Shown here: piece by piece, positions 5,595-36,444 of the stretch | Position numbering within the stretch: position 1 is the first letter of the stretch | Layout of the letters: the number at the start of each line of letters is the position of its first letter | From: Rhynochetos jubatus | Lineage: Eukaryota; Chordata; Aves; Eurypygiformes; Rhynochetidae | Direction of reading: 5' to 3' | DNA: 64,000 bases | Assembly: GCA_027574665.1 (NCBI GenBank) | Contig: CM050652.1 | Coordinates: 5,808,589 to 5,872,588 of the forward strand | The notes under the pieces: generated by a model | Seen by the model: only the letters and a program-made list of their open reading frames with translations | Database searches by the model: none | What the model was told of the DNA's origin: nothing | Translations under genes and position numbers: made by a program

Positions 5595-5974
5595 ATAGTA
5601 TTTCTTATATTAATGCTCTCCAGAATTTTATTTATTAATCATATTGAAGTACTGTCGAGTCACCTGTAGTGCTTGAGATATAAAAACCCCAAGATTACAG
5701 TATTCTAATAATTATTTAAAACACACCAGTGCATCAGAGATGGCATCAGACAAAACTTGGGTATGAGCCTGTATATTTTAAAATATTTACCCTCTAGTGG
5801 AGGCTGTTTCATGTCTTTCTTGGTCATGAATGGATGGAGAGGTAGCCTGTTTATAGATTTTTGCTGTATTTCCATGCTCAATATCTTAAAAAGATAAAAT
5901 TACTTTTATTTAAAATTATATGTGTTATATATTCATAACATGCCACGTGTAATTTCCAGGGAAGCTAATGTGAC
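5595..5974. other. Spacer between two CR1 fragments
   Basis: AT-rich sequence with no recognisable feature. It separates a minus-strand CR1 from a plus-strand CR1, so it is probably the original host sequence. Confidence 0.45.
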
Positions 5975-6433
5975 CAGAGTGGGAGCATTTCCAGAGAAGG
6001 GCAACAGAGCTGGGGAAGGGTCTGGAGCACAAGTCCTGTGAGGAACAGCTGAGGGAGCTGGGACTGTTTAGTCTGGAGAAGAGGAGACTGAGGGAAGACC
6101 TTATCACTCTCTACAACTACTTGAAAGGAGGGTGCAGAGAGGTGAGTGTTGGTCTCTCCTCCCAAATGGCAAGTGATAGGACAAGAGGAAATGGCCTCAA
6201 GTTGTGCCAGAGGAGGTTTAGATTGGATATTAGGGAAAATTTCTTCACTGAAAGGGTTGTCCAGGGCAATGATTGAGTCACCATCCCTGGGGGTATTTAA
6301 GAGGCACTTGTTAACAAGGGACGAGGCACTTAGGGATATGGTTTAGTGGTAGGTTTGGCAGTGTTACTTTAATGGCTCAGCTTGATGATCTTTAAGGGTC
6401 TTTTCCAACCTAAAAGATTCCATTAATCTGTGA
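5975..6433 (+). mobile_element. CR1 LINE, 3' fragment (ORF2 end and 3' UTR)
   Basis: A plus-strand CR1 tail with well-known blocks in order: GAGAAGGGCAAC near 5994, GGTCTGGAGCACAAGTCCTG near 6020, GTCTGGAGAAGAGGAGACTG near 6071, GTGATAGGACAAGAGGAAAT near 6174, TTCTTCACTGAAAGGGTTGT near 6241, GTCACCATCCCTGG near 6277, and the terminal TCTTTTCCAACC and ATTCC...CTGTGAT repeats. About 20 bases expected between the TTGTC and CAGGG blocks (near 6260) are missing, which is a small internal deletion. The short reading frames over it have no meaning. Confidence 0.94.
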
Positions 6434-10470: not shown

Positions 10471-13463
10471 GCTAAAATAATTGTTCCACCAGCATCGTCA
10501 GATTTTGATAATGCTACTCCTGTGAGAAAAAAATTTTAAAAAAGAATAAAATTATGATAATATTTCCTTGATCTGTCTGCCCACCTCCTTCCATACTGTG
10601 TATCACCTCTGCCACAAGGCTCATTTCCTTCAGGAGATGGGTGATTATTTGGGCTTGGTTGTGTTTTAAATTGGATTATTTCAATGCCAGCTGCCTTCTT
10701 GCTCCTGATGAGCTGACAGAAACAGGTATGCCTTTTGTTATAGTGTACCTAAGGAGTAAAAAAACATCCATCCTGGATTTTTGGTGGAAATGTCTGTACC
10801 CCTCATGTTAGTCTGCCCAGAACAGATTTGTGGAGGACTTTTCTAATCCATTTCCACATTACGCCAAGCAAGGAAGCCTATGGACTGGCTATACAACCAA
10901 AACTAGAGAACCATCCAGGACTGAAGCTGTGGCTGTCCTAATGAGACCTGCAAATTTTTGTCAGTTTTGCTGATTGTCACCTTCACTGTTTCCAGCACAG
11001 CAGCTATAAGGGAGCTCAGCAGCTCTTATGTCTGACACACCAGCGTTCGATCCAAGCCCTTCTGAGCTGTAAGTCTGAGGAACTCTGTCTTACGCTAATG
11101 AAACACACTTGCTACAGTCAAGCACAGAGGAAACCTCAACCACTCACTCCCCAAAGAGGTTACATGAAGATCTCATCTGTCTGAAACCTCTGCCAAAATG
11201 ATGCCAACCTACATCTCAGAAGAAAGAGAATATTAAAACCCTGTTTCTCAAACTCCATCTCCATGTGGCCTGAGTTCAACGCAGGTGTGACTTCTCTTGT
11301 ACAGTCTCAGTAAGCCTTGGCTTATTTAAAAGAGCACATTTAAAGAAACTAATGTGACGCACTACAGGTGAAGTAGCCTACGAATTTTAATAGGCTGAAT
11401 AATACTTGTGTACTGCTTTACTTGGAAAGCATCAGGTGGCTTTGGTGAGGAGAGTGGCAGTCCCTAGGAATGAACACCCATGGATTTTTTTTCAGCGTTT
11501 TACAGTGTTGCACAATCACAGAAGTCTCATAGAAAGAGTGCATTTTTTCATTGCACTGACAAAGAACTCTCGAATTTTATGAAAATATGAATTCTTATAT
11601 AAAACTACTCTTCCAAAGAAATCCTTAAACCACTGCAATCAACAGCAAAATTTCTTTTTCCCTTTTTTCTTCCTATTGCTTGGCAAAAAGTGTAAACCTA
11701 GTTGTTTATAACAACATTAGTGTTATGGATTTGAAGAAAAGCAATCCCCACTTTTTTACCACTCAGAGAGCAGATGACAACTTCCCACATTTTCTCATGT
11801 CACAGAAGCAGCATGTATCAGTGTCAGGCAGAAGGTGTTCCTTGACTGGAAAATCTCCAGTAATCACAGGAGAAAGCCAGGGAGTTAATCAGAAAGGCAG
11901 CAATGACAGAATATTTCTTTATTTCTCACTGCTCTTAGGTCATTGCCTTGCTCCATGCCTACCCATTAAAAAGATGTAGTCAGTTTGACCTCCTGAGGCT
12001 TGAAAGCTTGCTTTCAGAGCCATGCTGTTATCTTACAGTAGTTTAAATCTGTCAAATAATGCTTCATTACAGAAATATCAGTGATGGAATATATAGAGAG
12101 CTATCAGGTTTATTAAAGAATTGTTTCCCTTCATGGAATACTATGTTGTCTGTCTGTGTCTACTGTTTCTTGCAGTGTTTTCAAGAAGAGAACTTGCCAA
12201 AAAATGTTTAAGGTATTAGATCTTGCTGATAAATAATCTCAAACTGTCAAGAAGAGTGATAAAGACCCTGGGATAAAGCTGCCTGTAATCAGCAGCCTTG
12301 TTTGCAACCTCAGGAAGCAGCAAAGGATTTACTGGGTCTGGACACTGAGCAGACCCTTTCCTTGGAGACTCTTTTGTTCCCTCTACTCATTCTCCTGCTG
12401 AGCACGGAACATCAATCAGTGAGTTTATAGCCTCATCAACTCAAACACTTGCTTCTAGGTTTTAAAAATGCCAACTGTTGCCTTCCCTCAGGAGACAATG
12501 TTTTGCAGAGCTGATAGAAATTCTGAAATGCAAAACTGGGGCTGATTTGAGGGTATTAGTCAGAACCTCAGTGGTCTAGCTGGAGTTAATTTTACATTAA
12601 GAGTGAAGAGCAAAGTAAAGACATAGAAACATGATGCAGGTTTGATGGGATCATGAGAATAAAAATACTTTGCATCTAATACCAAGTGACTTTAAGAACA
12701 CCACTCATGATATGGTAGTTTTAAGACTGTTTTCATTATCCTATTGTTTTGGGGGTTTTTTTTTCAGTTTTCTTGTTTTTTATTAAGACCAAACTTATTT
12801 TTCTTAATTGAAAATATAGGTTTTCATGGAGGTAAAATAGGTCCTTAAAGATTTGACCACAAAATAGGTGCCTTTTTCTGAATAACAGAAGAATTATCAG
12901 CTCAAACCTTGATGCTTGGCAAAACATTTTCTTTTAAGTAGCATTTGTACAAAATATCCCGTGTCTTGAGCAGTCCTCTCTGAGCTCCACCTGAACAACT
13001 CTGACTATTTTAGCACACTGACTTAGCTTCAGGCTGATCGTGTAGAAGGCAACTATTCAAACAGAGTGCAGGGACAAGATCTTACAAGGTATGACTGGAA
13101 GAGTAAGACCAGAGAAACAGGACCATGGGTTGAAAGTCCTGAGAGGAGGCAACTGCATGGTTTCCCTTTGTCTAGTCTTTCACAGCTGTAAGTGCATAAA
13201 GCAGACGTGAGAGCATGCTTCAGGTACTATAAGCGTACCTCAGCTTTTCTTGACTCTCCCTGCTGTACCAAACTATAGTTCTTCCTGCTGTATAAATCTA
13301 TGTCATCACTACTATAATCCCAGACACAAGCCCATGCCCTGTCTACCTGTTTTCTGTAGCTATATGCCTGTCCTGAAGTTAAAGACCTTCTAAGCCCTAC
13401 CATCAAATCCTTATGAAATCTATCCAACAAATTTTTTGTTAGCATTACCATTACTCCTCTCTG
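10471..13463. other. Unannotated DNA
   Basis: No gene is supported. A 99-codon frame at 11680-11979 (plus) has no recognisable motif. The stretch near 10560-11200 is somewhat less AT-rich but matches nothing I know. Confidence 0.4.
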
Positions 13464-32739: not shown

Positions 32740-34210
32740 TACCCACTGGGATCTCACACTATTTAACATGCACATAAAACCATAAACATAATCCCAGGGA
32801 AAGTCACATCCTGAGGGCAGTGGATCAGTGTGGGCACCTTACTTATATTCACATCCAGGTGCTGCTTGGACTGGTTTTCCACTATTTGCAATGAATCCAC
32901 TCCATTAGGGTAGAACATTTAAAACTGGACCAGAGAATCACTTTTGTCATTATGAACTGAGACGAAAATTACCCTGCTCTATATTGCATAGAATGATGCT
33001 GAAGCAGAAGTGCTAAGAATTGCTATTCTGAGCAGCCATGGAATATTTCTTTATCTTCTACACTTTATGGCTGTCTAATGCTTTTTTTTTTAATAGGGAT
33101 TGTCAATCAGTTTATAATCATGGTTTATATTTCTAATCTGAAAGAAGTTGTTTAAATTGAGATAAATGCAGATAGAAAGATTTTTTGTAGTAATAATTCA
33201 GTGAAGTTTATGCTGTATCTAAAATAAAAAGATGATATATTTATCACCTGTCTTAGAAATCTGGATTTTCTTATTAATTTTCATCACTTTTTCAGTAACA
33301 AATATAATTCCATTATACTTTGTCTGGGATCCTCCAATATAATCTTTATTTTTTCTAGATATGAAGACAAAATCAAAATCAACAACCAACCAGCTATAAT
33401 CTACAGAAAACCTGCAAACCACCTCATCTGTTTCCATGAACACAGTAACCATCCAAAATACATCAATAAAAATTATGTTATCAAGCCATGCCCTTGGACA
33501 CCAATATATCTACTTTGAGGAGAACATTCATGATACCTACCTAAATAATTAAAAGACGAATTTTATCCAACAAGGCACTTTTCCAGGGGAATAGATTCTT
33601 TTGAAAGAAACATTCAATACATCACAAGAATTACTTCCACACGTTGTAGACACGAAGTGTTACAGGCCATCCTGCCCTGAAAACTCTGTGGGAAATCGAT
33701 GAACAATATGATTGAACGGCTTGTTTAATTATACATTAAACTTATACGGGAAGAACATGCTCAAAACTCTTCAAACCATTCACATTCTGCAAATCACTAA
33801 GCTCATCAGAGGAAAACCCCTTGTAGGCCAAAAACATGACAAAATGATTTAGATCATAACCGAGGAACAAGTTTAAACCTTACCAATGCGTCTCCACTAC
33901 AACCACAGTAAATATTCCCGCAAGGGACTCAACAAACATTTGATCTTTCACTTGTCTTTTTGCAACACATATTACGCTTTATGTGTGAACTTCACACTCC
34001 ACCTGTGATCATGGAGATTCTTTCTCCTACAAAACAGTTGCTCATTACTATTTCAGTCCTGATCATCAAAAGAGACTTACAAAAGCCTTTTAAAGCTGAA
34101 ACTGAGAAATAAAATTTGTGAATTGGTTGGTTAACAAAAACCTGGATTCAGAGTCTTGATTTTGTGATACATTATAATGTGCCTCCCATTGGTCATCAAT
34201 ATCTGTATGT
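32740..34210 (+). pseudogene. Decayed Penelope-like element: reverse transcriptase with traces of GIY-YIG
   Basis: PLEs encode a telomerase-related reverse transcriptase fused to a GIY-YIG endonuclease. The best-preserved part, 33228-33515, is an open run of 96 codons without a start. It has DDIF (33231-33242, RT motif C), YRKP (33402-33413) and HP (33450-33455), with spacings of 57 and 16 residues as I recall for PLE proteins. The frame then shifts (from about 33478): SHAL...EEN...L..KTNFIQQG fits the usual SQALR...L..F..RGY block. Other frames add FLDMK (33349-33363), QTIHIL...KPLVG (about 33772-33828), CNTYY (33961-33978, the block before GIY-YIG) and WLTKTWIQSLDF (34128-34163, weak). On the 5' side, LFNMHIKP (32759-32782) may be the LPKIHK motif and TLLYI (32971-32985) motif A with its aspartate lost. 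The expected tyrosine before DD is a TAA stop (33225-33227). Many frameshifts and stops make it inactive. The core is firm; both ends are approximate. Confidence 0.72.
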
Positions 34211-34894
34211 TCTTCTGCAACATCCCTTCTATTCCTAGGTACCAATCACCTTTTCTAGACATATGGCCTAATACTTATCTAATTAAGCTAATAATTTCAT
34301 TTTAGTTTTAATTCAGCTTTAAAACTCACTACTTTACTTTTGTTTTCAAAAATACGCTTACTTTTTTTGTGTACACTAATTAGTCTAATAAAAGTTGTTG
34401 TCTTTACTTCTCTGTGACTAAAAAAAATATAGTCTACTGTTTCTTTGAATTTTAATAATTCTTCTGAATCATTATTTTGTCCATTTATTGCATGAAGATT
34501 TTTCACTAAATTTAGCTGAAACGTTTTTTAAAAACTCACTTCCTGAAACTCTTAATTCATCTGCCTATATTTTTTGCAGATAATTGGATTGGATAATAAA
34601 GATAATTTTAGGAGGAAACTTTAACCAGAATCTATTTCAGTGATTTTTGGAAAAGAAAGTATATTTTTTCTAAAGCAATTATGAAAACTTTCATGATCTC
34701 CAGGGACCACAGGATGCCTTAACATAATTATCAAATGATGTTCAAAAAGTCAGTGTCTGATATGTAATTAAAGGTGATGATTAAGAGGAGGAATGTTTTA
34801 CATTACTTTAGACAGCTGCAATATAAATGTCTCTATCTGATCCAGTCCTTTCCATCCCTTCGTAAAGCCAGTGGAAAGAAATACAGATTCCTAT
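34211..34894. other. Unannotated, very AT-rich DNA
   Basis: I see only AT-rich sequence after the PLE fossil, and no repeat or gene is recognised. The end of the PLE may lie in here. Confidence 0.4.
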
Positions 34895-35745: not shown

Positions 35746-36444
35746 TGGCATGGTGTAGGACAAGCCAGCAACAATAGACCACAAGGCTAATCAATCACTC
35801 CCCCCTCCTCCCCAGTGGGATCAGGAGGAGAAAATACCCCTCGTTCTTCCCCCACTCAGCTTTGTTCCCCATTTATCTACCTCCACCCCCCCGAGTGGTG
35901 CAGGGGGACAGGGAATGCAGGTTGTGGTCAGTCCATCACACATCTCTGCTTCAGCGTAGGTCCCTCCCATGGGGTGCTATCCTTCAGGAGCATCCTGCTC
36001 CAAATCAGGCTTCCCACAGAGTCACGTGCTCTTCAGGTGCAGCCACCTGCTCCAGCATGGAGCCCTCCCCAGGCTGCAGGTGGGATGTCTGCCCCACCGT
36101 GACCCTCCATGCCTGCAGGGCACAGCCTTCCCTCTCACCATGGGCTGCAGGGGAACCTCTGCTCCAGGCACCTCCTCCCCACCTTTCCACACTGACCTGG
36201 GTGTCACCCACATCCCATTCCCCTCTTCAAACTCATTCTCCTCACTCTGCTTCTGCTGGCAATTCTCCTTTTGTGTTTTCCCCTCTTAAATATGCTAATT
36301 TTCAGAGGTGCTGACTGGCTCAGCTGTGCAGTGAGGTGGGTCTGGCATGCAGTTGGGGGATGGGAGCTTTTCTGGAAGCTTCTCACAAAGCCCTGTGGTC
36401 CTTCCTCAGCTACCAAACCCCTCCTACCACAGAAATCCAACACA
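35746..36444 (-). mobile_element. Solo LTR, avian ERVL-like family A, minus strand
   Basis: A 699-base solo LTR flanked on both sides by exact CTCTA (35741-35745 and 36445-36449), the 5-bp duplication expected for ERVL-type integration. On the minus strand it begins TGTGTTGG and ends CCATGCCA. It shares with 348-1347 the U3 block GTGAGAAGC, the GCTGAGCCAG.CAGCACCTCTG block, TTTAAGAGGGGAAAAC, CACCCAGGTCAGTG, GTGCCTGGAGCAGAGG, GATGGACTGA.CACAACC and the 3' blocks. Compared with that copy it lacks part of the GGAGCAG middle and the R-like segment, and it has an extra GGAGCAGGTGGC unit. The longest open frame of the window (35862-36314, plus, 150 codons) is antisense to it and is chance. No internal genes remain. 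Confidence 0.92.
36285..36294 (-). promoter_or_regulatory. TATA-like motif of the minus-strand LTR
   Basis: On the minus strand CATATTTAAG stands just before GAGGGGAAAAC, about 150 bases into the LTR. It is the undisturbed form of the site that is split by 27 bases in the copy at 348-1347. Confidence 0.5.

Follow-up and report, generated by a model that had tools for sequence, protein, structure and literature searches.

A long-dead Penelope-like retroelement and its dispersed relatives in the genome of the bird Rhynochetos jubatus

Penelope-like elements (PLEs) of the GIY-YIG type encode a single protein, which combines a reverse transcriptase (RT) with a GIY-YIG endonuclease, and move by target-primed reverse transcription; PLEs are also marked by terminal pseudo-LTR repeats, target-site duplications and a hammerhead-type ribozyme. 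In a stretch of 64,000 nucleotides of the R. jubatus genome (C5:5808589-5872588, hereafter the window, to which all positions given without a contig refer), a few short strings resembling PLE motifs raise the question of whether they are the remains of such an element and, if so, how old it is and by which route it came into a bird. As detailed below, the site is almost certainly the 3′ part of a long-dead PLE, reaching from the end of the RT to the GIY-YIG region.

Motif strings and profile searches at the site

The earlier note on this DNA, made by reading the letters, described an open run of 96 codons containing DDIF, YRKP and HP, and all of these were found exactly where, and as far apart as, it had claimed. 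In the frame listing, the stop-free run occupies 33228-33515 (+); DDIF, which strings and alignments identify as what is left of RT motif C (RYIDDIF in the family consensus), lies at 33231-33242 (+), with a stop codon immediately 5′ of it at 33225-33227; YRKP follows at 33402-33413 (+), 57 residues after DDIF; and HP starts at 33450, 16 residues past YRKP, within EHSNHPKY (33438-33461, +), which the alignments place against the family sequence YRKPT...HADSFHPPPLK. The FLD motif (SLFFLDMKT; 33352-33360, +), absent from the strings reported in the earlier note, lies in the +1 frame when DDIF and YRKP are taken as reference and enters several of the alignments; under some decay settings the same stretch is read in the original frame instead. 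The frameshift and the SHAL...EEN...KTNFIQQG block that had been claimed to follow are also present, the next frame carrying SHAL at 33484, EEN at 33517 and KTNFIQQG at 33553-33576, and further on KPLVG and CNTYY; in the decay-aware alignment described below, this block (SSHALGHQYIYFEENIHDTYLNN*KTNFIQQG; 33481-33578, +) is the counterpart, after the frameshift, of (Y)SQFLRLRRICSSDEDF...KKRFLQRGY. The open run is not special: the minus strand carries one of the same length (33219-33509) and, in all, the window is overlapped by 37 runs of at least 90 aa between stops. It is by the colinear set of matches, and not by the run itself, that the site exceeds chance. In fact, FLD at 33352, YRKP at 33402, HP at 33450 and QQG at 33568-33576 stand at family spacing in a single decay-aware alignment, and FLD, YRKP and HP occur together in the generic DP alignment as well.

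The PLE proteins used for these alignments were gathered with two bait sequences, which at a cutoff of E 1e-10 had 1414 and 2105 matches, respectively; from each set the top 120 were taken, giving 239 distinct sequences. The members with an organism name are invertebrate in the first-bait set and mostly fish, frogs and axolotl in the second, most sequences of both sets being without such a name. The first profile was built from the longer 109 of 120 proteins and the second, after the first had failed, from the longer 111 of the 119 new proteins. A frameshift-aware profile-to-DNA aligner was used and, after its generic form, a decay-aware version was introduced, in which codons are scored after mutation from the ancestral residue.

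With the first-bait profile (109 PLEs) the site scored 21.0-21.1 bits, which is not significant when compared to 27.0 elsewhere in the window. With the second-bait profile (111 PLEs) the generic frameshift DP gave it the best score of the window, 36.6 bits, against 24.2 for the next place and 27.4 with the reversed profile; the highest of 40 shuffled windows reached 31.3 (Gumbel P 0.001 per 64 kb). The decay-aware DP reached 47.6 bits at 33204-33929 (+), whereas the runner-up in the window had 24.9, the reversed profile 26.6 and the highest of 60 shuffled windows, under the first setting, 34.1 (Gumbel P 2.7e-6 per 64 kb); across six settings the site scored 43.4-52.7 and the next place 24.1-27.4. 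The frameshift-aware PLE profile search that had been proposed as a check was thus significant. Taken alone, this profile score would be expected to occur by chance 0.056 times in 1.33 Gb; a locally fitted background lowers it to ~38 bits, with a maximum of 22.2 in 40 shuffles.

The core of the relic (33204-33473, +; 36.6 bits in the generic DP) comprises the end of the RT domain with motif C (DDIF), FLD, YRKP and the S-HPK block, and none of 200 local shuffles reached its score. The significant part extends over 33204-33761, and the RT domain is recognised through DDIF, which lies within the significant colinear alignment to the 111-PLE profile. When tested alone, the upstream part, corresponding to RT motifs A and B, did not beat its shuffles and the two motifs were not recognised; similarly, with the generic model the SHAL-KTNFIQQG block (33481-33578) alone scored no better than its shuffles. 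Beyond the RGY block, the decay-aware alignment follows a decayed coding region (33579-33929, +) that includes KPLVG at 33814-33828, reading the stretch around this string in another frame and ending at 33761 or 33929 according to the decay setting. Reading the raw sequence caught a PLE fossil that standard searches missed: Pfam, with the 96-codon run and the read-through, gave only a single irrelevant sub-threshold match, and phmmer, with residues 229-400 of the padded read-through against 5.8 billion proteins, gave 333 candidates, none at E ≤10. A PDB search with the 161-aa read-through returned one irrelevant match (E 0.66), and Rfam found no family at gathering score in the 64-kb window.

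Elements with an RT abound in this genome, and the site could in principle be the relic of another of them, a LINE or an endogenous retrovirus. Ten RT frames taken from the genome scored 14.9-21.8 on the stretch, against 37.8 for the best of the 239 PLE proteins, the rival set being made up of YMDD and FADD frames. The seven YMDD-type frames, standing for endogenous retroviruses, gave 17.3-20.9 (one further locus, L004, yielded no frame), and the three FADD-type frames, standing for LINEs and presumably CR1-like by their look, gave 14.9-21.8, all at noise level. The median over the 239 single PLE proteins is itself noise (20.8 bits); the top three reached 35.6-37.8, with shuffle maxima of 22.9-31.5 (60 shuffles each; 26.9 for the best protein). 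The site is therefore closer to PLEs than to the other RT families tried, as had been supposed; moreover, the order DDIF-FLD-YRKP-HP-RGY is PLE-like and a sibling copy carries a GIY-YIG motif, so that an origin from a LINE or a retrovirus is scarcely credible.

A sibling copy and a dispersed family

The genome searched comprises 1.33 Gb in 148 contigs. A DNA search with the relic found in it only the relic itself, as expected of a word-based search at 57% identity. The sibling copy, L023 on contig C7 (around C7:27021070), was instead found with the Xenopus laevis PLE P0224, through a weak match (E 4.9), and it carries CPHGKYVGET, a GIY-YIG motif. The whole recognisable relic of the window, 33086-34420 (+), with an uncertain 3′ limit at either 34307 or 34420, aligns with L023 at the DNA level at 125.5 bits, against a maximum of 39.2 for 38 control stretches of the window and 32.9 for the reverse strand, where the real-DNA controls were the rest of the window and named loci. 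A repeat of the alignment gave 124.0 bits (30 shuffles, maximum 38.4) and a shorter stretch 113.6 bits (100 shuffles, maximum 33.8). The two copies are 56-57% identical across ~1300 sites, with a K80 distance of 0.66-0.69. Since the profile was not used on the window in this comparison, the sibling alignment is the stronger proof.

Several of the motif strings find their partners in L023: EHSNHPKY pairs with KHSSHPKH, EEN with SEENI and QQG with KQGY. The sibling alignment also points to a putative remnant of the start of the GIY-YIG domain at 33961-33992 (+), made up of CNTYY (33961-33975) and a broken counterpart of YVGET (TATGTGTGAACTT); the YVGET of the CPHGKYVGET of L023 maps to window positions 33980-33992, a stretch that alone is not significant, and the CNT of CNTYY pairs with the family CNT in a noise-level alignment. 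WIQSL, a string in the third frame (34143-34157, +), may be what remains of the terminal (REAY)WIYTLDTLAPKGLNE block; it lies within the stretch common to the window and L023 and is paired with the terminal block in none of the alignments. Thus, the downstream blocks pointed out in the earlier note (KPLVG, CNTYY and WI..L) are present as strings and the sibling alignment covers their stretch, but none of them beats shuffles when tested alone.

A chance resemblance in an AT-rich non-coding stretch, for which one could invoke the preference of AT-rich codons for I, K, N, F and Y, the noise-level score of the first PLE profile and the blocks outside the core that are not significant singly, is refuted by the alignment at the DNA level, over ~1.3 kb, with a PLE relic found independently on a different contig, besides having against it a colinear profile score above 40/40 and 60/60 shuffled windows, and deserves practically no credence. 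With the significant profile search, the noise-level scores of the LINE and retrovirus frames and a sibling with PLE domains of its own, the identification of the site as a dead PLE, which the earlier note had put forward, is supported.

A read-through search of the genome with L023 led to two further places, L051 (C3) and L052 (C6), whose alignments reach 76-78 bits to L023 and ~90 bits to one another, the null maximum being at most 38.0. Under the PLE profile L051 scored 29.3 (20 shuffles, maximum 20.8) and L052 gave no score. For the window, the DNA alignment with L052 is weak (52.4, null maximum 45.5), and that with L051 stays below the null (27.3, maximum 39.7). On the L023 alignment and the PLE domains of L023, the window copy is, as judged from sequence similarity, a member of a small dispersed family in which one copy is clearly a PLE relic; the window and L023 clearly belong to it, and L051 and L052 are connected through L023. 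The sparse PLE record of birds thereby gains one dispersed family; a limited literature search found no published account of the window copy or of its family.

The closest known relatives are vertebrate PLEs, such as P0224 of Xenopus laevis, P0207 of Ambystoma mexicanum and P0144 of the fish Coilia grayii. Like them, the window shows RT motif C, FLD, YRKP, S-HP, the RICS region and the RGY block in the same order and at the same spacing, and its sibling L023 keeps the CP-GKYVGET of GIY-YIG; unlike them, the window copy is dead and its RT motifs A and B are not recognised.

Other PLE relics in the genome

Whole-genome searches with the PLE proteins P0224, P0238 and P0207 led to 9, 6 and 7 places, respectively, and the window was missing from the results of all three. 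After removal of duplicates, 15 places outside contig C88 and one on C88 remained, and 14 of the 15 beat all 40 of their own shuffles under the PLE model. These further relics (L015-L023, L025, L026, L029, L032 and L034) cover profile columns 36-210 and 270-699 of 726 and include RT (GTAIGT...PNYTNLF), the FLD-to-RGY region and GIY-YIG (CPHGKYVGET, CPCELICIGKT); they were picked by PLE similarity, so that their scores are partly expected, and many alignments run well past the seed matches. The window relic is therefore one of at least 15 PLE relics in this genome. Among 17 relic stretches, 13 of 136 pairs gave DNA-level alignments above every reverse-strand control, for example L026-L032 and L032-L034, and by sequence there may be more than one PLE family.

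Loci outside the window were scored with their local base composition; the window composition inflated the scores, with controls up to 139. L026 scored 102.4 on 1.2 kb (40 shuffles, maximum 22.7), its full-length scores (206.2 and 101.6 on the two strands) being inflated. L036 was rejected as a PLE relic (18.8 against 21.8 in shuffles, and 18.7 against 19.4), as were L011-L014, the relic's own weak genome matches (E 0.3-6), which scored 15.7-23.4 under the PLE model; two of these exceeded their 12 shuffles, L012 with 23.4 and 22.3 against 17.9 and 18.7, and L014 with 20.0 and 20.1 against 18.5 and 18.8, and L011 contains an open frame of 307 aa, apparently from an unrelated gene. The RT loci L001-L008 scored up to 30.1 under the same model, several of them above their own 12 shuffles.

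On contig C88 (34,048 bases), an intact stop-free frame of 260 aa at 12087-12866 on the minus strand (L030, L037, L038) is a PLE C-terminus (LCHKHYIGET...WITQLNTITPLGLNEKA) and adjoins TTAGGG-like repeats. The observed/expected CpG ratio is 0.55 in C88, as opposed to 0.14 for the window. Outside C88, the genome gave no match to a 6-kb piece of this contig, and long stretches are repeated within it. C88 is probably a foreign contig, perhaps fish-like; an origin from the bird is less likely.

Decay, age and origin

Over the 123 codons aligned, the window copy has accumulated 3 stops and 3 frameshifts, and it retains 26% identity to the profile consensus. Its best-fit decay is ~0.4 substitutions per site; the 14 other relics, which were chosen by a search favouring well-kept copies, have 0.05-0.2. 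Half of the distance between the window and L023 amounts to ~0.33-0.35 per site. The avian neutral rate is ~1.5-2.5e-9 per site per year, and at this rate the half distance would place the insertion roughly 130-230 My ago, bearing in mind that the copies may derive from different source elements and that the alignment is noisy. With a K80 of 0.66-0.69, the divergence of the copies suggests that the insertion predates modern birds and, thus, inheritance rather than recent transfer.

We propose that an active PLE inserted a copy in an ancestor of the bird by means of its RT and GIY-YIG endonuclease, through target-primed reverse transcription, and that the inserted copy was probably 5′-truncated; point mutations, stops, frameshifts and deletions would then have led to its present state. 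All that the window copy retains starts at about RT motif C, in keeping with either 5′ truncation or loss by decay.

It is unlikely that PLEs were still active in the bird lineage after the crocodilian split, some of the relics or the C88 fragment then being bird-specific and not inherited. Less likely still is that the PLE entered the bird lineage by horizontal transfer instead of coming down from amniote ancestors. The distribution of PLEs is patchy and, among the listed PLE proteins with an organism name, none is from an amniote, most of those listed being without a name. Of the two possibilities left by the earlier note, very old or transferred, the heavy decay and the copy-to-copy K80 favour great age and speak against transfer, as do the further PLE relics in the same genome. 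Moreover, inheritance is made simpler by the two Penelope insertions among the 32 markers reported for crocodilians (Suh et al. 2014, PMC4316615) and by the human fossils of Frith 2022 (PMC9004415), whose table 5 has 54 pre-amniote Penelope fossils and table 4 at least two Penelope entries of tetrapod age. The crocodilian insertions belong to the other living archosaur lineage, where they serve as presence/absence markers within crocodilians. The human fossils are likewise old and broken PLE fragments, recovered by sensitive DNA-protein alignment, but their age was shown by genome comparison (PMC9004415), whereas that of the window relic is estimated from copy divergence.

The supposition that PLEs had not been reported from birds does not hold, as Penelope copies were already counted in the repeat tables of the chukar (108 copies, 22,583 bp; PMC10837146) and of the spotted owl (169 copies, 35,110 nt; PMC5629816). 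These repeat-masking counts concern fossils of this kind in other birds. The class of finding is thus already known in birds and the relic of the window is fairly ordinary; it fits the view that PLEs were present in amniote ancestors and were silenced on the line to birds, a picture that is unchanged.

Some ancient protein fossils of transposable elements have been exapted (Frith 2022, PMC9004415), and the fragment could have been retained as a conserved non-coding element. No conserved block was seen, the identity with L023 staying at 50-67% through all 12 bins of 100 sites, and we regard exaptation as very improbable.

Elsewhere in the window, a repeat of ~0.5 kb is present in two copies of opposite orientation (348-844 and 35946-36444), which are 66% identical and contain proline/leucine-rich open frames. 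A 100-aa open frame at 5974-6276 (+) has no Pfam match and presumably resembles the tail of the avian CR1 LINE protein.
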